In this document: positions 43,687 to 63,670 of the stretch, piece by piece
Layout of the letters: every line of letters starts with the position of its first letter
Position numbering within the stretch: the stretch's first letter is position 1
From: Candidatus Thalassospirochaeta sargassi
GTDB taxonomy: Bacteria; Spirochaetota; Spirochaetia; UBA9216
DNA: 63,795 nt
Direction of reading: 5' to 3'
Assembly (NCBI GenBank): GCA_028532855.1
Contig: JAQQAL010000042.1
Location: 1-63,795 of the forward strand
Notes under the pieces: generated by a model
Told to the model about the DNA's origin: nothing
Seen by the model: the letters and a program-made list of their open reading frames with translations, nothing else
Database searches by the model: none
Translations under genes and position numbers: made by a program

Positions 43687-44139
43687 ATGAGATTTGTAAT
43701 ACAACGAGTTAACAGGGCATCGGTTACCGTGAATGGAAACAGTACCCGCAGTATAGGAAGGGGACTGATGGTCCTCGCCGGTATCGCAAAAGGTGATGAA
43801 ATGTCAGATATTCAGTGGCTGACAAGGAAACTGCTAAACCTGAGAATATTCGAGGATGACGAGGGGAAGATGAATCTGTCGATTAAGGATATTGATGGAG
43901 AAATTATGGTGGTAAGTCAGTTTACCCTCTTCGCAACAACTAAAAAAGGCAACCGGCCCGGGTTTAACGCCTCAGCAGCTCCAGATGAAGCAATACCGCT
44001 CTACAACAGCCTTATAGACCATATAGAACAGCAATACGGGAAACGCCCTGCTACGGGCGAATTCGGGGCAGATATGGATATAGATATGATAAATCATGGC
44101 CCTGTTACAATTATGATTGACTCGAAAAACCAGGAGTAG
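43687..44139 (+). CDS. dtd: D-aminoacyl-tRNA deacylase
   Basis: A 150-residue Dtd protein that removes D-amino acids (and glycine from tRNA-Ala) from mischarged tRNA. Hallmarks are MRFVIQRVNRASVTV, the catalytic SQFTLFATTKKGNRPGF with SQxT, and the late NHGPVTIMID carrying GPVT. Length is normal. Its 3' end overlaps the convergent 72-codon gene by 29 nt, so the two mRNAs are complementary at their ends. Confidence 0.94.
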   Translation: MRFVIQRVNRASVTVNGNSTRSIGRGLMVLAGIAKGDEMSDIQWLTRKLLNLRIFEDDEGKMNLSIKDIDGEIMVVSQFTLFATTKKGNRPGFNASAAPDEAIPLYNSLIDHIEQQYGKRPATGEFGADMDIDMINHGPVTIMIDSKNQE

Positions 44140-44329
44140 AGGACTGTTCCATATATCGGATAACACTTCCTATATCAATAAACTCCATGTCGACTGCAAT
44201 TTCTCCGAAAAGCCTTGAATCACCTTCACTCTGGGCTTTCAGCACCTGTCTTACCTGTGATTCAGTCATCTCACCCATCTTCACCATTCCGTCGCCTATC
44301 CTGCCGTCTATAAGCTGCTCTAAATCCAT
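44111..44329 (-). CDS. 72-residue MshEN-like (candidate c-di-GMP-binding) protein
   Basis: A very small protein. Residues 9-32 read RIGDGMVKMG then EMTESQVRQVLKAQ, matching the spacing of the 24-residue MshEN c-di-GMP motif (R-L-G, two hydrophobics, G at 10, L/V at 17, L at 21, Q at 24). A five-residue spacer and a second, more degenerate 24-residue copy follow, from RLFGEI to YMEQ, still ending in Q. MshEN domains usually sit at the front of GspE/PilB-type ATPases; here one stands alone. It overlaps the FliG-like gene by 10 nt on the same strand. Motif reading is by eye; binding is not shown. Confidence 0.7.
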   Translation of the reverse strand: MDLEQLIDGRIGDGMVKMGEMTESQVRQVLKAQSEGDSRLFGEIAVDMEFIDIGSVIRYMEQSSTPGFSSQS

Positions 44330-45408
44330 TCTTCATCTCCCCGGGGGATGCTGATTTCATCCCTCCGTTCAAGTTCCATCATATACTCCACCAGCTCCCG
44401 TGTAGATTTATCAACGTCTGAGCGTCGCATTGCTCCAAGGTAGACTGATTCCTCCTCAATCATAATCCGCCTTCGTTCTGAGATGTTATCGAGAATCCTG
44501 TCTCTAATTTCTTTGCTCTTTCCCTTAATGATTATTGCCAGTTCGGAATTATCAAAATCACGAAGTAGAGTCTGTATATCTTTGTTGTCCATATTAATAA
44601 GCAGATCAATAGTGTAGATACTGTTCCTTATATCATCAGCAATCCCTTCTCCAGCTTCAGTAAGATCATCAAGTATTTTCTCTTCAGACACGGGCGACAT
44701 ATGTCTCAGGATTCCCGCAAGAACCGATTTCCCGTCAACCTCTTCTGTAACAACCCTACCCTGGGCCCGGATCCTGTCCCTGAAGATTCCCTCCATCCTT
44801 TCAATAATGCCGGGTGCGACCTCACCCTGGCGGGCGATTCGAAGCACAATCTCTTTCCTGCTTTCGGGCGGCAAACCGGATATTATTCTTGATGATATAT
44901 CCGCTTCAAGAAACGACAGTACAATACTCATAACGTAAGCCGGTTCATTTTTTAAAATAAAAAGAATCTGTTCCTGCTGGAGATCATTCATAAAATCAAA
45001 TGGCTTTCGTCCCCCGAAAGGAAGGACCTTGTCAAATACAGCCTGTCCCCGTTCGGGGCCAAGTGCTGCATAAAGCATTTCTTTTGCACGCTCTGGCCCC
45101 CCGTCTATTGCTTCGCCTGGTGGAGGCTTCCATTCCCCTCTACTCTCAGCTCCGACGCCACCGAATTCCTTAAGGATATCGCTGGACTCTTCCTTGCCGA
45201 GTTTCCTTACCTGAGCAATCTCTCTGGCAATTTTCTCTACATCTTCCGGTGAAAACTGTTTCAGTACTTCGGCAGCCTGGTCAGGCCCGACAAGCAGCAG
45301 AAATTTGGCAGCCTTGGAATAGCCTTTGGATACAGGTTTATCTTTTTCAGAGGTTTTCAGAAATCCGCTTTTCTGGTATGCAGCTGCAGCCCGATCGATC
45401 TTTTTCAT
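44320..45408 (-). CDS. Flagellar motor switch protein FliG paralogue (FliG1-like)
   Basis: A 362-residue FliG family protein. The N-terminal region has FLLLVGPDQAAEVLKQFSPE like FliG_N, then a middle domain with PFDFMNDLQQEQILFILKNE (the EHPQ position reads NEPA) and a C-terminal FliG_C-like part (LLINMDNKDIQTLLRDFDNS). FliG links the MS ring to the C ring and contacts the stator. The divergence, including the altered EHPQ motif and an insert near 80-105, fits the second FliG (FliG1 type) of spirochaetes rather than the standard FliG2. It follows the EAL gene after 31 nt. Confidence 0.83.
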   Translation of the reverse strand: MKKIDRAAAAYQKSGFLKTSEKDKPVSKGYSKAAKFLLLVGPDQAAEVLKQFSPEDVEKIAREIAQVRKLGKEESSDILKEFGGVGAESRGEWKPPPGEAIDGGPERAKEMLYAALGPERGQAVFDKVLPFGGRKPFDFMNDLQQEQILFILKNEPAYVMSIVLSFLEADISSRIISGLPPESRKEIVLRIARQGEVAPGIIERMEGIFRDRIRAQGRVVTEEVDGKSVLAGILRHMSPVSEEKILDDLTEAGEGIADDIRNSIYTIDLLINMDNKDIQTLLRDFDNSELAIIIKGKSKEIRDRILDNISERRRIMIEEESVYLGAMRRSDVDKSTRELVEYMMELERRDEISIPRGDEEWI

Positions 45409-45439
45409 AGAAGTATAATATCAGCAGCCGTCAGGGTTA

Positions 45440-46930
45440 TCAATCGGGAAAAGCTATATAGTTTTCTTTGCAGCCGTTCATAAACTGCTCAAACTCTTCA
45501 ACAGGAAGAGGCCGGCTGAAAAAATACCCCTGAAAGGTTCTGCAGCCCAGCGAATAGGCTTCCTTGAGCTGTTCAAGCTCTTCAATTCCTTCAAATACAA
45601 CATCCAAATCAAGTTCATGCCCTATCTTAACTATCGACTTGATCAGCTCACGCTTCTTACCCTCTTCAGATAAGCCTTCAATAAAAATCTTGTCGATTTT
45701 AACTGTGTCTGTTTTAAATTTATTAAGATACCCCAGTGAGGAATAGCCTGTACCGAAATCATCCAGGGTTATTTTGAATCCCATATCACTCAATTTTTTG
45801 ATTTCTTCAGATGCATAGTCCTGGTCATTAAACAGACATGATTCTGTAATCTCGAGGTAAATATCATCAGCCCGTACGCCTGTCTCATTTAATATCACCC
45901 TGAGCTCCTCTGTAAATCCCCGGTTGAAAAACTGACGCGGCGAGATATTGATTGATAGTTTCAGGTTGAAGTACTCTCGTCTCCATTCTGAAAGCTTCAT
46001 CATTGAAGCTTTCAGAAGCCAGCGTCCTATTGGCAGAATCAGGCCTGTTTCTTCAGCCACTTCAATAAGATTCCTCGGTAGAACAGAACCCCTATTTGGA
46101 TCCTTCCAGCGGATTAGAACCTCAGCCTTAAAATCTTCGCAGTTGATACCATCTTCCACAATATTATCCACAGTAATGATAGGCTGGAAATAAAGAGTGA
46201 AATTTTCGCTGAGCTCAAAAAGAGTTTTTACCTCTATCGCAGAAAGCAGATCATTCTGCATTTCAAGATTACCTATTACCTTCTGGCGCATATCCTCGCT
46301 GAAAAAAACGACATCCGCACCCCGTCCCACAGCATAACTCAAGGCTATATCGGCACTTGAAAGAAGCATTCGCTTATTCAGACCGTCTTCAGGAAAACTG
46401 GCAATTCCGATATTACATCCAACCTTGACCCTATACACCTGATTATCAATAGTCCCTGATATATTATCCCGGATATCATACGCTAACCCGGCGAGATCAT
46501 GATCGGAGATGCTGTCGAAGATAAAAACAGCAAATTCATCAAGCCTTGGATGATATAGAAGGCCACGGGTATCCAGCATCAATTTCAGTCTCTCAGCCAG
46601 TGTTGATAAAATATTGTTGAAAACATCTGGATTAAAAGCCTGTCTGACATGATTGAAATTTTCATCCAGTTTTATCAATAAAACAGATATCTTCGGAGGT
46701 TTCGGGAGTTTAAAAAAATCCCACAGCATAGAACCTATATCCCGATCCATCTTGTGGTGATTTGGCAGGCCTGTTACCTCATCATACAGCATCATCAGGC
46801 TGGAATTCTGCTGCCTTCGTTCGGCATGCTCCAATCTGATCATAAGCGAGCGGATTTTCTCAAGCAGGGTATCACGTTCGTTTCGCAGGTTGTTGATTAT
46901 TTCAGCGGCTTCTTCATTGTCAACGCTCAT
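45440..46930 (-). CDS. EAL-domain c-di-GMP phosphodiesterase with degenerate GGDEF domain
   Basis: A cytoplasmic protein of 496 residues: an N-terminal coiled coil (about 5-45), a GGDEF domain whose signature reads RLDEF (inactive as a cyclase), and an EAL domain (about 235-485). The EAL motif is EVL, but the other catalytic groups look present: NISPRQF, EITES, DDFGTGYSS, TVKIDK, FEGIEE and QGYFFSRPL. It probably hydrolyses c-di-GMP, with the GGDEF part possibly sensing GTP. Start ATG 46930 follows GGAG. It heads an operon with the FliG-like and MshEN-like genes. Confidence 0.85.
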   Translation of the reverse strand: MSVDNEEAAEIINNLRNERDTLLEKIRSLMIRLEHAERRQQNSSLMMLYDEVTGLPNHHKMDRDIGSMLWDFFKLPKPPKISVLLIKLDENFNHVRQAFNPDVFNNILSTLAERLKLMLDTRGLLYHPRLDEFAVFIFDSISDHDLAGLAYDIRDNISGTIDNQVYRVKVGCNIGIASFPEDGLNKRMLLSSADIALSYAVGRGADVVFFSEDMRQKVIGNLEMQNDLLSAIEVKTLFELSENFTLYFQPIITVDNIVEDGINCEDFKAEVLIRWKDPNRGSVLPRNLIEVAEETGLILPIGRWLLKASMMKLSEWRREYFNLKLSINISPRQFFNRGFTEELRVILNETGVRADDIYLEITESCLFNDQDYASEEIKKLSDMGFKITLDDFGTGYSSLGYLNKFKTDTVKIDKIFIEGLSEEGKKRELIKSIVKIGHELDLDVVFEGIEELEQLKEAYSLGCRTFQGYFFSRPLPVEEFEQFMNGCKENYIAFPD

Positions 46931-47912: not shown

Positions 47913-48662
47913 TCAGGATTTATCTGGTGAAATAATACCGTAAACCTCACGCTCAATTGCAACAAACTCATTACTGAACTCGTCCCGCTTCCCTGCTCCG
48001 CGTTCAAGTTCGATATTCATCATCTTAACGCCGCCGGGCGTCATAATCAGCAGTCGGTCGGCAAGGTACACAGCCTCGCGAATATCATGAGTAACGAACA
48101 TCATAGAAACACCCAGTTCACTATTCAGCTCAAGCAGCATATCCTGCAGTCCACGTCGAGTTGGAGCATCGAGTGCTGTGAATGGTTCATCAAGCAGCAG
48201 GATTTCAGGCCGTCCGGCAAGTGCCCGTGCAATTACCGCTCGCTGCTTCATCCCACCCGATAGCTGTGAGGGGTATTTTTCGGCGGCATCAGCAAGATCG
48301 ACCATTTCAAGAAGTTCGGAAACATGGGTCGGATCTGCATCAGGGAAGGATGCATTGGCAAAGACCGTCAGCCAAGGAAAAAGCTGAGCACTGTCCTGAA
48401 AAACCATTATCCGTTTAGGTTCAGGACCGCTGACTGTCCCCCGGCTGTCGGTAATAAGTCCTGAATCTGGGAGAAGAAACCCGCCGGCGAGACTCAACAT
48501 CGTCGACTTTCCGCAACCCGAAGCTCCAATTATGCAAATTATTTCACCCTCATAAAGCGAGGCGGAAAATTCAGATAATACCGGTGAATAGCCGGGATAC
48601 GCAAACCCGGCATTCTCAAACCTTAGAACCGGTGTTTTGAGGTTTTCGGTATTCGCGCTCAT
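47913..48662 (-). CDS. NitT/TauT-type ABC transporter ATP-binding protein (system 1)
   Basis: A 249-residue ABC ATPase. Walker A is GASGCGKST, the signature LSGGMKQRAVIARAL, Walker B ILLLDEPFTALD, and the switch His lies in MFVTHDIREAV. This sequence type drives NitT/TauT (SsuB/TauB-like) importers. It is the last gene of a three-gene operon and overlaps the permease as ATGA. The substrate is set by the binding protein and is unknown. Confidence 0.92.
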   Translation of the reverse strand: MSANTENLKTPVLRFENAGFAYPGYSPVLSEFSASLYEGEIICIIGASGCGKSTMLSLAGGFLLPDSGLITDSRGTVSGPEPKRIMVFQDSAQLFPWLTVFANASFPDADPTHVSELLEMVDLADAAEKYPSQLSGGMKQRAVIARALAGRPEILLLDEPFTALDAPTRRGLQDMLLELNSELGVSMMFVTHDIREAVYLADRLLIMTPGGVKMMNIELERGAGKRDEFSNEFVAIEREVYGIISPDKS

Positions 48663-49426
48663 GCTTCACCCCATTTTTTCAGTGTCTCCGCTTCTATCAG
48701 GTGGAACAATCCGCTCTCTACAATTAATCCGATAAGTGCAAGCATCAGAATACCAGCATACATTCCCGGTGTGTCCATGAAGATGCGCTTCTGGAACACG
48801 AACCAGCCGAGGCCACCTCCGCTTCCGGTTATTCCGAATATCATTTCGGCGCTTACAGCCGCGCGCCAGGCTCTGGCCCATGCTGTTTTCAAACCTGAAA
48901 AAATGTGCGGAAAAGATGCGGGGAGCATGATGCGGAAAAAAAAGGCCGAAGATTTAAGCGCGTAGTTTGCGCCTATCTTTTGGTATACCGCAGGAACGGA
49001 TGAAAAGCCTGCGGTTATATTGACTACAAGCGGCCAGAGAACCGAATGAATAATTACCATTAGCAAAGTCAACCTTCCAATGCCGAAAAAAAGGATGAGT
49101 ATTGGAAGCACAGCTATGCCGGGCAGAGGATGAAGAACCGCCGTTAACATTGATGAAAGCCGTTTTACAGCTGCAAACTGAAATGAAAGGGCGGCCAGAA
49201 TAAAGGCGGTAAACGCTCCGCTAAGGATTCCGGCCACAACAAAACCAAGTGATACAAAGGTCCCGGAAAGAAGACTACCGCTAATTAATTCCCCGCCGAA
49301 AGAAGCAAAAACCACAGTAATCGACGGAAGCACCAGCTCAGAAACCAGCCCACTGCGGGCTGTAATTTCCCAGACAACCAGCAGGATTACAAACCAAAGA
49401 AGAGTCCCAGGAAGACTTCTTTTCAT
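48659..49426 (-). CDS. NitT/TauT-type ABC transporter permease (system 1)
   Basis: A 255-residue permease of the BPD_transp_1 family with about six membrane segments (LLWFVILLVVWEITARSGL at the start, ILILFFGIGRLTLLMVII in the middle). The EAA-like loop that contacts the ATPase is visible near the C-terminal third (LKTAWARAWRAAVSAEMIFG). It overlaps the binding-protein gene and the ATPase gene by 4 nt each, so the three are translated together. Substrate unknown. Confidence 0.9.
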   Translation of the reverse strand: MKRSLPGTLLWFVILLVVWEITARSGLVSELVLPSITVVFASFGGELISGSLLSGTFVSLGFVVAGILSGAFTAFILAALSFQFAAVKRLSSMLTAVLHPLPGIAVLPILILFFGIGRLTLLMVIIHSVLWPLVVNITAGFSSVPAVYQKIGANYALKSSAFFFRIMLPASFPHIFSGLKTAWARAWRAAVSAEMIFGITGSGGGLGWFVFQKRIFMDTPGMYAGILMLALIGLIVESGLFHLIEAETLKKWGEA

Positions 49427-50397
49427 TCTACAGCCACACCTGCCGCAACAGCATCGGAAGCCGAAATACCGGTAATGTAACCCTGCCCTGTCATAAAGCT
49501 GATAAACTGCTCCAATCCGTAGACGGTGCTGGTAAATATCATATCATCCCGGCTTATGTATTTCAGCACCTCTTCTTCAGGCATATCATAGGCTGAGGCA
49601 AGAATAACGGCTGTTTCCTCCGGTTTTGTATTAATAAAATCTATCGATTTTTCAAGCGCCTGCAGAAACCCTTCAACAAGCTCAGGATCCTCCGCAAGGA
49701 AACTGTCAGTAGCCATGGCTCCTATAAAACTGAAACTGCCCCCGAATGCTTCATCACCGGATAACACCGTAGTGAAACCGCCTCCGTCGGCTGCAGTTGC
49801 CTCATTCTCCATGAAAATATATGGCGGTGATGTAAAGTGAGCGTCAACCGATCCTGAAATCAGAGCGGTCATTCCGTCTGGGTGCTTCATTGTTACAAGC
49901 CCGCCATCAAAACGGGAAGCATCACCGTATAAACGCTCAGACGCCATTGACAGCAGGATGTGCTGTATGCTGCCGGGCTGCGGCAAGGCAATGCGTGCCC
50001 CGGGCTTTATCGCGTCAAGAGGATTATTAAAAACACCGGAAAGCACATCATCTCCAGCTACAAGCCCGACTGGGCAGATGCTCAAGCCCGCTATCAGTTT
50101 CCAATCCATACCCTTATCAAGACCTAACAGAAATGGGGGTAAACCCATAAAACCAAGATCAACTTCTCCGGCAAGAACAGCTTCTCTGATTGCAGCTGTA
50201 TTACCGAGTTTGACCCATTCAATCTCAACACCGGGAGATAATTCTTCAAAATATCCCTGAGCCCGCATTATCTGAAGCGGAGCGTAGGCTAGGCCATACT
50301 GCTCAGCTATCGTGACGGATTTTTCTCCGACACAGGACGTCAACAATACCGTAAAAAAAACAAACACGGTAATAGGTAAAAATTTATTGTGCTTCAC
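49423..50397 (-). CDS. NMT1/SsuA-like lipoprotein, substrate-binding (system 1)
   Basis: A 324-residue periplasmic binding protein. A lipobox (VLLTSC, Cys22) makes it a lipoprotein. The mature start VTIAEQYGLAYAPLQIMRAQ and VLAGEVDLGFMGLPPFLLGL are typical of NMT1/THI5/SsuA-like proteins that bind small organic anions, pyrimidines or sulfonates. First gene of the system 1 operon, with AGGC/GGAGG-like sequence before the start (GGAGGCAATTAG). Substrate cannot be read from sequence. Confidence 0.88.
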   Translation of the reverse strand: MKHNKFLPITVFVFFTVLLTSCVGEKSVTIAEQYGLAYAPLQIMRAQGYFEELSPGVEIEWVKLGNTAAIREAVLAGEVDLGFMGLPPFLLGLDKGMDWKLIAGLSICPVGLVAGDDVLSGVFNNPLDAIKPGARIALPQPGSIQHILLSMASERLYGDASRFDGGLVTMKHPDGMTALISGSVDAHFTSPPYIFMENEATAADGGGFTTVLSGDEAFGGSFSFIGAMATDSFLAEDPELVEGFLQALEKSIDFINTKPEETAVILASAYDMPEEEVLKYISRDDMIFTSTVYGLEQFISFMTGQGYITGISASDAVAAGVAVE

Positions 50398-51840: not shown

Positions 51841-52572
51841 TCAGCTCAGCAGCCGGTACAGCTTCTTCTCAATCTCCATTGAATTCCTGGATTCAAGACT
51901 GCGCTCGGCATGGGGCTCAGGATTGGTTATTTTTTCGATAATTTGAACAGGACGTTCGTCGGAAAACACAAAGATTTCATCGCCTAAAAGTATGGCTTCA
52001 TTAATATCGTGGGTAACAAATATAGATGTCCGCCGGTCTTCGACCCAAAGCTTTGTGAACAGATTGGTGAGATTGATCTTCAAGCCTAGATCCAGAGCCT
52101 GGAAGGGTTCATCCATTAAAATTGTATCTGCGGGGTACGCAAAAGCCCGCGCAATTGCTACACGCTGCCTCATACCGCCGGAAAGCTGGGACGGAAAAAA
52201 ATCAGCTGAGTCCACCAGTCCCACAAGCTGGAGATAATATTCGGCTGTCGCCCTGCTCTGTTCGCTGCCCATATGTTTATTCAGAACAATCTCAATATTT
52301 CGGCGGACTGTACGCCAGGGAAGCAGCCTCGGTTCCTGAAACAGAACGCTTGTATTCCCCGAAGCGCCGATAATCTCTCCTTTATCCGGGATTAATAATC
52401 CGTTTATCAGATTGAGCAGAGTAGTCTTGCCGCATCCCGACGGTCCCAGGATAACACTGACGCGTGATGCCGGAAGTTCCATATTGAACTTACAGAAAAG
52501 CGGCTTTCTGATATCAGACGCCTGTTGATAACTGAAACCTATACTATTGATTTTAATTGAGTTTTCAGGCAT
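51841..52572 (-). CDS. NitT/TauT-type ABC transporter ATP-binding protein (system 2)
   Basis: A 243-residue ABC ATPase with Walker A GPSGCGKTT, signature LSGGMRQRVAIARAF, Walker B TILMDEPFQALD, and switch His in FVTHDINEAIL. It is similar in type to the system 1 ATPase but clearly distinct in sequence. It overlaps the permease by 8 nt and ends the system 2 operon. It lies between tRNA-Phe and the permease. Substrate unknown. Confidence 0.92.
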   Translation of the reverse strand: MPENSIKINSIGFSYQQASDIRKPLFCKFNMELPASRVSVILGPSGCGKTTLLNLINGLLIPDKGEIIGASGNTSVLFQEPRLLPWRTVRRNIEIVLNKHMGSEQSRATAEYYLQLVGLVDSADFFPSQLSGGMRQRVAIARAFAYPADTILMDEPFQALDLGLKINLTNLFTKLWVEDRRTSIFVTHDINEAILLGDEIFVFSDERPVQIIEKITNPEPHAERSLESRNSMEIEKKLYRLLS

Positions 52573-53335
52573 TTACAGAAGCCTCCGGTCTGATACGTTT
52601 AATTATCACATCGAGTATCCCCTCTGATAACCAGCTGAGAACTACAGCCATTACAGTCCAGCCAAGGACCTCGGCTGTTTCGAGGTTCATCTGGGAAAAC
52701 TGCAGCCCTGTTCCTATCGCACGTACAGGCTGAGCCAGCACTTCGGCTGCAATTACAACCTTCCAGCCCACGCCAATACTGGAACGCAGACCGCCAAGGA
52801 CAAAGGGGACAACCGACGGGATTATTATTTCACGCAAGGCCTCCCGCCTGCTCAGTTTGTAGACTACTGAAAATTCGATTAGTTTACGGTCCACACCCGC
52901 TACCCCCTGCTTTACATTCGCTGTAAGGATGGGAAATATCATCAGCACACAGACGAAAACCGGGACCAAATCAGTTTTAAACCATATCATTGCAAGCAGA
53001 ATCAGCGACATAACCGGAACCGTTCTTGTAACTGAAACAAGCGGTGATAGCATTGCATCCACCCGCCTGCTGACCCCGCTCGCTATTCCCGCGCTGAAGC
53101 CGAGTACAAAAGAAAGTGCAAGCCCGTAGACGGTTCTTAGAACCGTTGCGCCGACCGCCATCCAGAAGTCCAGTCCGGTTACAAGAGCTTCAAGACGCAG
53201 CAGAACTGTTTCAGGAGCAGGAAGAATAATATCGGTGCCGATCCTCAGAGACACGAGTTTCCAAATCAGGATGAGAACTGCAGTAGACGCGACACCAATA
53301 AGATGTTTCTCGAATTTAGAAGTAAAACCCTTCAT
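52565..53335 (-). CDS. NitT/TauT-type ABC transporter permease (system 2)
   Basis: A BPD_transp_1 permease of 256 residues. The start chosen, ATG 53335 (MKGFTSKFEKHL), follows GGAGG and lies 20 nt inside the binding-protein gene; the frame stays open upstream to 53434, but those residues look non-coding. Membrane segments include LIGVASTAVLILIWKLVSL and VMSLILLAMIWFKTDLVPVF. The ATPase-contact loop is in the C-terminal third (LRSSIGVGWKVVIAAEVLAQ). Confidence 0.88.
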   Translation of the reverse strand: MKGFTSKFEKHLIGVASTAVLILIWKLVSLRIGTDIILPAPETVLLRLEALVTGLDFWMAVGATVLRTVYGLALSFVLGFSAGIASGVSRRVDAMLSPLVSVTRTVPVMSLILLAMIWFKTDLVPVFVCVLMIFPILTANVKQGVAGVDRKLIEFSVVYKLSRREALREIIIPSVVPFVLGGLRSSIGVGWKVVIAAEVLAQPVRAIGTGLQFSQMNLETAEVLGWTVMAVVLSWLSEGILDVIIKRIRPEASVNA

Positions 53336-54329
53336 CGGGCAGTTGTCCTCCAACGGAAACCGGATCAAGCTCAAGCAGCATCTGCAGAAAATCTTCAACC
53401 ATCGTTTTTGACTCAACTGCGGGAATGAATTCAATACCGCTTACAGGAATTGCCATTTTTGCTACAGCAGCTCCAAGAATGCCGATCTCTTCTATAACCT
53501 CGGCAGCAGGTTCAGGATTAGCCATAACCCAGCCTATTGAATTATCAAGTGCAGAAGCGACAGCTTCAGCGGCTTCCGGTCTTTCATTTATAAGGCGTTC
53601 ACTCAATACAAAGGCTGTAAACGGAAAAGGCCTTTCTTTACCACGAATTGACATCAGTTCTTTCTGCGGATCAAGTACAATTTCAGCCGGTGTTTTCATC
53701 TTAGCCATAAGAGCAAATGGCTGCGGAATGAAGGCCGTATCGGCTTTACCGGCAGCCAGCAGCTGTACAATCTGAGGTGGCTGAGCAGTAAAGTTAAGAA
53801 CCACATCCTTTTCTGGATCAATTCCGTGTTCCTTCAGCAGATATCGCAGAAGGTAATCAGGAGTCGCTCCCTTCCCGGTCAGATAGATGGTCTTTCCCTT
53901 TAAATCAGTCCATTCACTTACCGCAGTATCCGACGAAAGCATAAACAGTGAACCAAGCCCGCTTACCGCGGCAAGTTTAAAATCCAGGCCCGTCGAATAC
54001 AGCTTCGCAGCCGTATTAACAGGCAAAAAAGCTGCGTCAATCTCGCCGCTTGTCATCTTGGTTACCGCCTCAAGTGGTGAGCCTAATACAACATACTCGG
54101 CTGTTGTATTAAAACCCGGTTGAAAGTTTTCATCTACCATTTTTGCAACAGCCATTCCCGACGGCCCTTTGAGCGCCGCAATCACGATTTTCAGGTCATC
54201 CTGTTCCACGGGCTGTGCCTGATCAGATCCATCTGCGGACATGCTTTCCTGTGTTCCTCCGGCAAATACGCCGAAACAGAGTACGGTCAAAAGAACTGTT
54301 GTCAGTAAAATAATTTTACCTCTTGTCAT
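53316..54329 (-). CDS. NMT1/SsuA-like substrate-binding protein (system 2)
   Basis: A 337-residue exported binding protein with a signal peptide (residues 1-23, ending VFA before GGTQES). The mature part shows TTAEYVVLGSPLEAVTKMTS, AFLPVNTAAKLYSTGLD and FTAQPPQIVQLLAAGKAD, a two-lobed NMT1-like fold. A TTEQ/GGTQES-like linker of small polar residues follows the signal, common in Spirochaetaceae. No lipobox cysteine is visible. It begins 20 nt after the TM1266-like gene. Substrate unknown. Confidence 0.86.
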   Translation of the reverse strand: MTRGKIILLTTVLLTVLCFGVFAGGTQESMSADGSDQAQPVEQDDLKIVIAALKGPSGMAVAKMVDENFQPGFNTTAEYVVLGSPLEAVTKMTSGEIDAAFLPVNTAAKLYSTGLDFKLAAVSGLGSLFMLSSDTAVSEWTDLKGKTIYLTGKGATPDYLLRYLLKEHGIDPEKDVVLNFTAQPPQIVQLLAAGKADTAFIPQPFALMAKMKTPAEIVLDPQKELMSIRGKERPFPFTAFVLSERLINERPEAAEAVASALDNSIGWVMANPEPAAEVIEEIGILGAAVAKMAIPVSGIEFIPAVESKTMVEDFLQMLLELDPVSVGGQLPDEGFYF

Positions 54330-54695: not shown

Positions 54696-55472
54696 CTAAA
54701 TAGATAAATTTTTAATGAATTCATGCATCTTCGAGTCAAGTGAGGAATATATAAAATTCAGAAGACCCGTCCGGCTGTCCTCGGACATAGGCTCGCTGAA
54801 TTTCAAAACATGGATAATCGTTTCGCCGAAACTTCGTTCAAGAATTTTTTCTGCCCGCAGCTCCACTGTTTTACCTTCGAGCGATAACCGGATAGTCAAA
54901 CTTTCCCCTTTTGATATGTCGGCTGTTTGAATAATGCTGCAGGAAAGCCCCGATGAGCTCATGTCATGTGCAATTGCATTATATTCGCCCGCATCACTGG
55001 TAATCTTCATTAGAGCAATCTCTTCACCGCTGCCGCCCAGCCTGACAAAATTTCTGCGTCCTTTACCGTTAAGTTGAATAAAAATTTCATAGAGTTCAGC
55101 TCTCAGAGTTTTATCATCCCCAAGAAACTGTATTGAACGGCTGCAAAACTCAGATTGCGGCTTAATTTTATCATATATAGCGATAGTTTCTGGCCTTGCA
55201 TCGTCGGAAAGCCCCTCTATTTCTGAGGAAATTTCTTCCGGAAGCCATTCCAGCTCGTTATCAACAAGATTAATAACTACGATGCTTGAAGGATAATACT
55301 CAGCAAGCTGTCTGATCTTCTCGTAATCGTAGATGTAGTAGACTGCAAATTGATTTCGAAGTTGTCCGTAAAAAATATTCCTGATTTTTTCATCAGGGTA
55401 CAGGACAAAGATTTTTTTTCCCGTTAACGATTCCATATCTGTAAGATTATGCTCTTTATCTTCACTTTTCAA
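54696..55472 (-). CDS. PilZ-domain protein with receiver-like N-terminus
   Basis: A 258-residue protein. Residues 15-120 look like a degenerate receiver (KKIFVLYPDEKIRNIFY, SSIVVINLVDNELEWLP). The PilZ domain fills about 137-250 with the c-di-GMP motifs RRNFVRL (RxxxR type) and DMSSSGLSC (DxSxxG). This matches known c-di-GMP receptors. It has no operon partner and lies opposite the Mn2+ riboswitch. Target of control unknown. Confidence 0.83.
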   Translation of the reverse strand: MKSEDKEHNLTDMESLTGKKIFVLYPDEKIRNIFYGQLRNQFAVYYIYDYEKIRQLAEYYPSSIVVINLVDNELEWLPEEISSEIEGLSDDARPETIAIYDKIKPQSEFCSRSIQFLGDDKTLRAELYEIFIQLNGKGRRNFVRLGGSGEEIALMKITSDAGEYNAIAHDMSSSGLSCSIIQTADISKGESLTIRLSLEGKTVELRAEKILERSFGETIIHVLKFSEPMSEDSRTGLLNFIYSSLDSKMHEFIKNLSI

Positions 55473-62284: not shown

Positions 62285-63670
62285 TTGAAAAACAGTAATT
62301 CAAGGTTTAAAATGCAAATCATGAATGATAAGTATCAGCTGAGCTCTAACCAGTTAAAAAACAGAACTGTTTTTATAATCACAGTAATCGTCATTCTCAG
62401 TTTTTTTATCTTTTTTAATTTCATAGTACGTTATAATTCCATCAGACTTCTTTCTAATTTCTTATTAACCGCAGTAGCGCTGTTCGAGCTTCTCTATTTA
62501 ATTTTTAATAAAAAGGCTTTCTATTCTCATCATCTTGGAATCGGGGTATTTTTTCTGGCCCTGGTCTTACTGCCGATATTTGAGAATGATCATGGACAAA
62601 GACAGGCATGGTTAATATTAATTCCGTTTATTCTTGCAAATACACAAAATATTAATATAGCCAAAAGATTTATCTTTATTTGCGGAATTTTTATTTTAAT
62701 TGTAAATATATTACACTTCGGTATAAACAGTACTGCAACCCCTTTTATTATTGAGCAGATATCCCTATTCATCCTCGCCAGCCTGATTTCATTATTTTAT
62801 AAGAAAACGCAAATCAAATATGAAACGACTCTCACCAATCAAATCTATATAGATAATCTGACCGGATTTCCAAATCGGAACAAATTAATAAAAGACCTGA
62901 AGGAATTGAGTTCTACAGCGAATACGGCACTCATGATAATAGATATAGACGAATTTAAGGAAATCAATAATTTATATGGAGCCAGAATCGGTGATGCCGT
63001 TATTATACATTTCGGGAAAATTCTTTCTGATGTGGCAGCAGCATTCACTGAAAATCAGATTTATAGACTTCATTCCGATGAATATGCTGTTATACTGCCA
63101 GACGCGTCGCACACAGACTGCGATATATTTATCAGAGAATTTCTGGATTCTACCCGAAAAAATTGTATTGTAGACGGACATGAAATATCTGTGACCGCGA
63201 CAGCGGGAATAGCTATCGGATGTTGTCAATTAATTGAAAACGCCGACATAGCGTTTCAAAAAGCCAGAAAAGAGAATAAAAGTTTTGAGTACTTTGATCC
63301 CGGGCTAAAAACAACTGAACTCTATTCCAGGAATCAGGCAACACTTCTGAAAATAAGAAAAGCATTGAATACCGACAACATTATTCCGTATTTCCAGCCA
63401 ATTTACGATCTTAGAACGCATCAAATAACGAAGTATGAAACTCTTGTACGCATGATAAATAATAACAATGTGATATCTCCGATATCATTTCTTGAACTAT
63501 CTAAACGTTCAAAGAGCTATCCTCAAATTACCCAGAGAATGATAGTGAAATCTTTTGAGAAATTTGCGGATACTGACTATAGTTTCACACTTAATTTATG
63601 TAGTAAAGACATTTATAATCATAGAACGAAAGAAATTCTGTATTCAGAACTCAGTAATGGGCACCTCTAA
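62285..63670 (+). pseudogene. Truncated GGDEF-EAL membrane protein, cut by an IS element
   Basis: A membrane protein of up to 461 residues: a hydrophobic region with about six segments (30-170), a GGDEF domain with degenerate signature HSDEY at 263-267, and an EAL domain starting at IPYFQPIYDL with ETL for EAL. The EAL part breaks off after about 95 residues (TLNLCSKDIYNHR) before its second half, and the frame ends at a stop inside a likely IS end. The gene is much richer in A+T than the rest of the window. Probably non-functional or altered; an intact copy would have a full EAL domain. Confidence 0.75.

Follow-up and report, generated by a model that had tools for sequence, protein, structure and literature searches.

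The window analysed here is a stretch of 63,795 nucleotides, contig C42 of a 3.8 Mb genome whose nearest named relatives in the comparison, Spirochaeta sp. UBA9216 and Spirochaetales bacterium SZUA-414, are both metagenome-assembled. It carries three closely packed minus-strand genes, with the gap of 31 nt and the overlap of 10 nt lying at the positions given in the preliminary description of this DNA. The features referred to below are as follows.

45440-46930, minus strand: gene of a GGDEF-EAL protein of 496 aa, a probable c-di-GMP phosphodiesterase judging from its residues
45409-45439, minus strand: gap of 31 nt separating the EAL gene from fliG1
44320-45408, minus strand: gene of a FliG1-type FliG paralogue of 362 aa with FliG_N, FliG_M and FliG_C (Pfam)
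44320-44329, minus strand: overlap of 10 nt, shared by the last part of fliG1 and the first part of the small gene
44111-44329, minus strand: gene of a stand-alone, MshEN_N-like four-helix protein of 72 aa, the main subject of this work
44231-44302, minus strand: motif I of the small protein, residues 10-33, RIGDGMVKMGEMTESQVRQVLKAQ, with R10, I11, G12, G19, V26, L30 and Q33 (from alignment to MshE 5htl and conservation)
44141-44212, minus strand: motif II of the small protein, residues 40-63, LFGEIAVDMEFIDIGSVIRYMEQS, with L40 at the Arg position, F41 and G42 invariant and a last position without Gln
43687-44139, plus strand: dtd, convergent, overlapped by the last codons of the small gene

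The adjacency of fliG1 and the small gene was found in 7/7 genomes of the window's taxonomic family and is kept despite the divergence of FliG, whose identity in those genomes is 43-78%. The 10-nt overlap recurs in 5/7 of them, and the genes farther up- and downstream of the pair vary from genome to genome; in the window's own region, alaS lies a few genes off from the small gene. An orthologue of the EAL gene (60-73% identity) occupies the same place in G003, G004 and G005 and is absent from that place in G006, G001 and G002. Wherever the orthologue exists, the EAL gene is directly upstream of the fliG1-small pair, and since it is confined to genomes of the genus it is a genus-level addition. 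The gene triplet, whose conservation had been suggested as a check, is therefore not kept across spirochaetes: the fliG1-small pair belongs to one taxonomic family, and the EAL gene to four of the five genomes of the genus.

The GGDEF-EAL protein consists of an N-terminal stretch of ~40 aa, a degenerate GGDEF domain (Pfam, 1.4e-14) and an EAL domain of the EVL variant (3.6e-62). Residue-by-residue alignment to MorA (4rnh) found the EAL-site residues E, N, E, DD, K, E and Q all retained. The GG(D/E)EF signature is absent, RLDEF replacing GGDEF. With a complete EAL site and a degenerate GGDEF domain, the protein is, as first proposed, probably a c-di-GMP phosphodiesterase, and it looks catalytically competent. 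A c-di-GMP network is present in the genome, given its ten PilZ matches. Elsewhere in the window, a PilZ-domain protein is encoded at 54696-55472 (minus strand), a second candidate c-di-GMP receptor in this stretch. A GGDEF-type protein of 461 aa lies near the window end at 62285-63670 (plus strand), its EAL-like C-terminal part seemingly stopping early. Two adjacent substrate-binding/permease/ATPase ABC sets, of the nitrate-taurine-thiamine type by eye, are located at 47913-50397 and 51841-54329 (minus strand).

The middle gene encodes a FliG that matches TIGR00207 at 5.6e-58, under the cut-off of the model, and a canonical FliG2 is encoded elsewhere in the genome, at G000:C51. A tree of 34 FliGs groups the canonical copies, the C51 copy of this genome among them, in one compact clade with support of 100/100 and places the window FliG outside this clade among fast-evolving FliG1-type copies. 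The EHPQ motif, which is kept in the FliG2-clade copies and lost in the FliG1-type copies compared, is replaced by EPAY in the window FliG. The FliG1-type copies have mostly retained Lys, Arg and acidic residues at the positions matching those that generate torque in E. coli FliG. From the tree and the separate canonical copy, the earlier assignment of the window protein as a FliG1-type switch protein, distinct from FliG2, can be upheld. In Borrelia, FliG1 has a role in torque generation and an asymmetric placement (PMC7225975). Borrelia- and Treponema-like genomes have FliG1, and no small gene was detected in them beside it or elsewhere in most cases.

That the small ORF is a real gene follows from its presence in 7/7 genomes of the window's taxonomic family (protein identity 47-78%) and from a pN within the genus (0.13-0.24) well under pS (0.66-0.93), which places the gene under purifying selection. 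A Shine-Dalgarno-like GGAG precedes its ATG inside fliG. The tail of the protein, encoded by the codons overlapping dtd, is not conserved.

Most work on MshEN has concerned a domain that is an integral part of ATPases in secretion and pilus systems. An alignment of 64 relatives of the small protein was used as a profile (A2) against all PDB sequences, and the matches were PilF (E = 3e-8), PilB (1.4e-6 and 6e-6) and MshE 5htl (2.7e-6), with no match outside PilF, PilB and MshE chains up to E = 1. The NCBIfam model NF053729 (“c-di-GMP_motif, MshE-related”) matches the window protein at E = 4e-6 over positions 1-51 of 53, with 26.5 bits under a cut-off of 38, and it matches 64/64 relatives, the best at 3.4e-13. 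The Pfam MshEN model (PF05157) matches neither the window protein at E 1 nor any of the 64 members, and its search of the window's genome gave zero matches, so that the small protein is the only MshEN-type protein detected there. The verdict against MshEN that Pfam by itself would give is overturned by the NCBIfam match and the PDB profile search, and weak PhoU and fumarase C-terminal matches of the small protein were set aside as helical-bundle look-alikes. As judged from these sequence comparisons, the resemblance to MshEN exceeds chance.

Structure prediction, which had been suggested as a check, agrees with this. An AF2 model built on 6 sequences has four helices with pLDDT of ~90 over residues 10-60, and the PDB structures closest to it are MshE with c-di-GMP and c-di-GMP-bound PilF GSPII-B (1.0-1.2 Å over ~52 residues). 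On MshE with c-di-GMP the model superposes at 1.0 Å over 52 columns, with a Foldseek probability of 1.00; the Foldseek E-value of 0.04 is modest because the protein is short. VIA-align gives the fold match a Z of 9.1. The PilB-PilZ complex 7lkm is also among the fold matches. Sequence profile and predicted fold thus both show the small protein to be a homologue of MshEN_N, the four-helix subdomain with which MshEN begins.

In MshE, c-di-GMP is bound through two motifs of 24 residues with Arg, Leu-Gly, Gly, Leu, Leu and Gln, and an isolated subdomain of 62 residues, MshEN_N(1-62), binds the ligand alone (Wang et al., PMC5013675). The first residue of a motif can also be Lys or Leu, with affinity even higher, and the high-affinity PilF GSPII-B has Lys and Leu at its motif starts (Neissner et al., PMC11731258). 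Replacing a single Gln by Glu leaves binding of ~0.5-1 micromolar, and two such changes abolish it (PMC11731258).

Motif I of the window protein fits (R/K/L)LGxx..G..LxxxLxxQ, with Ile and Val replacing two Leu, and the spacing of this copy (R10, G12, G19, V26, L30, Q33) is as originally reported. Across the 64 relatives it begins with Lys (31) or Arg (29) followed by Ile, its first Gly is found in 64/64, the Gly at position 10 in 55/64 and the Gln in 63/64. Motif II is a different matter. The window protein has L40, an allowed residue, at the Arg position, F41-G42 in place of Leu-Gly, E49 for Gly and S63 for Gln, so it lacks the Leu-Gly, the Gly at 10 and the Gln at 24 that define the motif. 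Among the relatives, the Arg position is mostly Leu and never Arg, the following Phe and Gly are each present in 64/64, and the final Gln (MshE Q61) appears in only 3/64, being missing in 61/64; the FliG-linked subfamily has no consistent substitute there. The preliminary description had expected R-G-G-Q to be conserved among orthologues, which is largely true of copy I (with R or K) and fails for copy II. It had also read copy II as degenerate and ending in Gln. Degenerate it is, and Q62 does stand at position 24 if counted from R39; aligned on G42 (MshE G40), copy II has L40 at the Arg position and a spacer longer by one residue, and Q62 falls one short of the Gln61 position, which is occupied by S63. 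Q62 was thus rejected as the second motif Gln, coming one residue early. The PilF offset (L196 to Q218) is no parallel, since it is due to a loop deletion absent from the small protein. R39 was likewise rejected as the motif II Arg, because R39-L-F-G is one residue longer than R-L-G. The R39 position is R or K in 64/64 relatives, and the residue may matter all the same.

In MshE numbering, G11, G40 and the Phe at the L39 position are invariant in the 64 relatives, Q32 is present in 63/64 and L29 in 59/64, and the hydrophobic triads are retained over these diverged sequences. Ligand-contact positions account for seven of the nine columns with the highest conservation. Their conservation is no higher than that of structural core positions (p = 0.32), so conservation is suggestive of ligand binding and, on its own, no proof of it. 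Going by the motifs, the small protein is not a canonical c-di-GMP binder, and binding of c-di-GMP via a remodelled half-site is plausible.

A class-wide search found the family in 94/395 genomes, mostly as short ORFs of ~57-100 aa, with up to eight per genome, and the phylum-wide A2 search gave matches in 123/393 genomes, Borrelia- and Treponema-like genomes, classed as such by their size and the positions of FliG, being mostly without the small gene. Outside the class, many A2 matches fall within frames of ~700 aa, a length as expected of MshEN-bearing ATPases. The free single-domain MshEN is not confined to this locus and forms a widespread family in environmental Spirochaetia, mostly without an adjoining fliG. 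In two related families the small gene adjoins alaS, with fliG1 1.3-11 kb off in one of them, and in the tree of the small proteins (few columns, weak forks) the fliG1-linked sequences share a subfamily with the alaS-linked ones. In several other families (L025, L027, L028, L030, L031, L094 and others) it lies immediately upstream of the gene of a BFN-UVR bifunctional nuclease. One family has an MshEN-like domain fused to the C-terminus of malic enzyme (L040:2424-3887, L041:2237-3703, L042:1085-2602), again with the BFN-UVR gene adjacent. ABC transporter genes are a further neighbour, and in one genome the small gene has a response regulator gene and a CheX-like gene for neighbours. With relatives beside alaS, BFN-UVR and ABC transporter genes and within malic enzyme, a flagellar role is not the general function of the family. 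Titles and abstracts of the papers mentioning MshEN with FliG, or MshEN with stand-alone, describe neither the pairing nor the family in the part of the literature covered, and we found this stand-alone MshEN-like family of environmental Spirochaetia undescribed in the literature searched. On the whole, the interpretation in the preliminary description stands in the MshEN-type fold and homology, the EAL protein and the FliG1 type, and needs correcting as to how conserved and how unique the arrangement is.

Two genomes of the window's genus hold a second, more distant stand-alone paralogue of 56-64 aa (L008:1483-1677, L009:1492-1662). Two IMG/VR viral contigs encode proteins of ~124 aa (L105:2809-3183, L106:2809-3186) with an RHH-like N-terminal stretch, assigned by eye and with no Pfam match, ahead of the MshEN-like domain; they are possible c-di-GMP-responsive DNA-binding regulators of mobile elements. 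The structure model of the L105 fusion protein has a pLDDT of 50, too low for any conclusion from it.

Our preferred reading, to which we give a probability of roughly 0.38, is that the small protein binds c-di-GMP or a close relative, docks on FliG1 and tunes the periplasmic flagellar motor. The ligand would most likely be held by motif I together with the hydrophobic, Arg-less half-site of motif II, which we infer from the conserved contact positions and the Arg-less precedent of PilF GSPII-B. Acting in trans, the protein would be a small receiver docking on a partner encoded alongside, and in the window's taxonomic family it would dock on FliG1, the rotor paralogue linked in spirochaetes to torque generation, as suggested by the adjacency in all seven genomes and the translational overlap in five. 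The co-transcribed GGDEF-EAL protein might then lower c-di-GMP locally and thereby set the state of the receiver, in the genus only. Overall, c-di-GMP would tune the motor along a path that does not involve the PilZ protein YcgR. Synteny is what ties the small protein to flagellar control, our leading hypothesis, held with modest confidence.

The remodelled motif II also lends itself to a somewhat unlikely reading, in which the protein has kept the MshEN_N fold, lost nucleotide binding and become a protein-protein adaptor, comparable to the MshEN-like N domain of Xanthomonas PilB that binds a PilZ protein. The motif II Arg and Gln are gone in nearly all members, and each of the five sequences from the genus has D or E instead of its position-10 Gly. 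Precedents exist in XpsE, an MshEN homologue in which c-di-GMP binding is lost (PMC5013675), and in PilF GSPII-A, which has a degenerate motif II and does not bind (PMC11731258), and the presence of 7lkm among the fold matches points the same way. However, motif I is nearly perfect, with G11, G40, Q32 and the triads kept over 64 diverged sequences, and PilF Q218E, with one Gln replaced, still binds at 460 nM (PMC11731258).

If a nucleotide is bound, FliG1 need not be the partner, and the small gene could be a regulatory gene that often changes neighbours and has settled in the fliG1 operon. The alaS, BFN-UVR and ABC transporter placements and the malic enzyme fusions fit this idea, as do the shared subfamily of FliG-linked and alaS-linked sequences and the proximity of alaS in the window's region; nevertheless, we consider it doubtful in view of a pair that stays together through FliG divergence, with its overlap repeated and its outer genes differing. 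A cytoplasmic housekeeping role without a second messenger, such as a small assembly factor for a co-translated protein, would suit the diversity of partners and the absence of the gene from Borrelia- and Treponema-like genomes, but it is very improbable given that MshEN domains account both for the significant matches in sequence and for the best ones in fold. A broader view, which we offer as speculative and unlikely to hold in full, is that this modified, free-standing MshEN serves throughout Spirochaetia as a diffusible c-di-GMP receiver, like single-domain CheY or PilZ, plugging into whichever partner is co-encoded: the FliG1 rotor, the BFN-UVR nuclease, malic enzyme or DNA-binding proteins of mobile elements. 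If true, c-di-GMP would control the periplasmic flagellar motor independently of PilZ through the FliG1 branch of the family.

Compared with known systems, the small protein shares with Vibrio cholerae MshE (5HTL; PMC5013675) the four-helix MshEN_N fold, the motif I positions, the Gly-acid backbone donors and the hydrophobic triads. Unlike MshE, the spirochaete proteins are free, 60-75 aa long and without ATPase or C subdomain, and in motif II of the small protein Leu takes the place of Arg38 and Phe that of Leu39, Gln61 is absent and the spacer is one residue longer. The fold is also that of Thermus PilF GSPII-B (8PDK; PMC11731258), where the motifs start with Lys and Leu; those of the family start with Lys (about half) or Arg and then mostly Leu, and those of the window protein with Arg and Leu. 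PilF GSPII-B keeps both Gln (Q190, and Q218 after the loop deletion), whereas the spirochaete family does not retain the second. In contrast to Borrelia (PMC7225975), the window's fliG1 is followed by a small MshEN-like gene that is missing from Borrelia-like genomes; the two FliG paralogues per genome, a divergent FliG1-like and a canonical FliG2-like copy, are common to both. Although the fold of the small protein is unrelated to theirs and its link to FliG is one of gene neighbourhood only, the proposed logic of a c-di-GMP receptor at the rotor is that of the YcgR-type PilZ brakes on MotA/FliG (PMC12943098).
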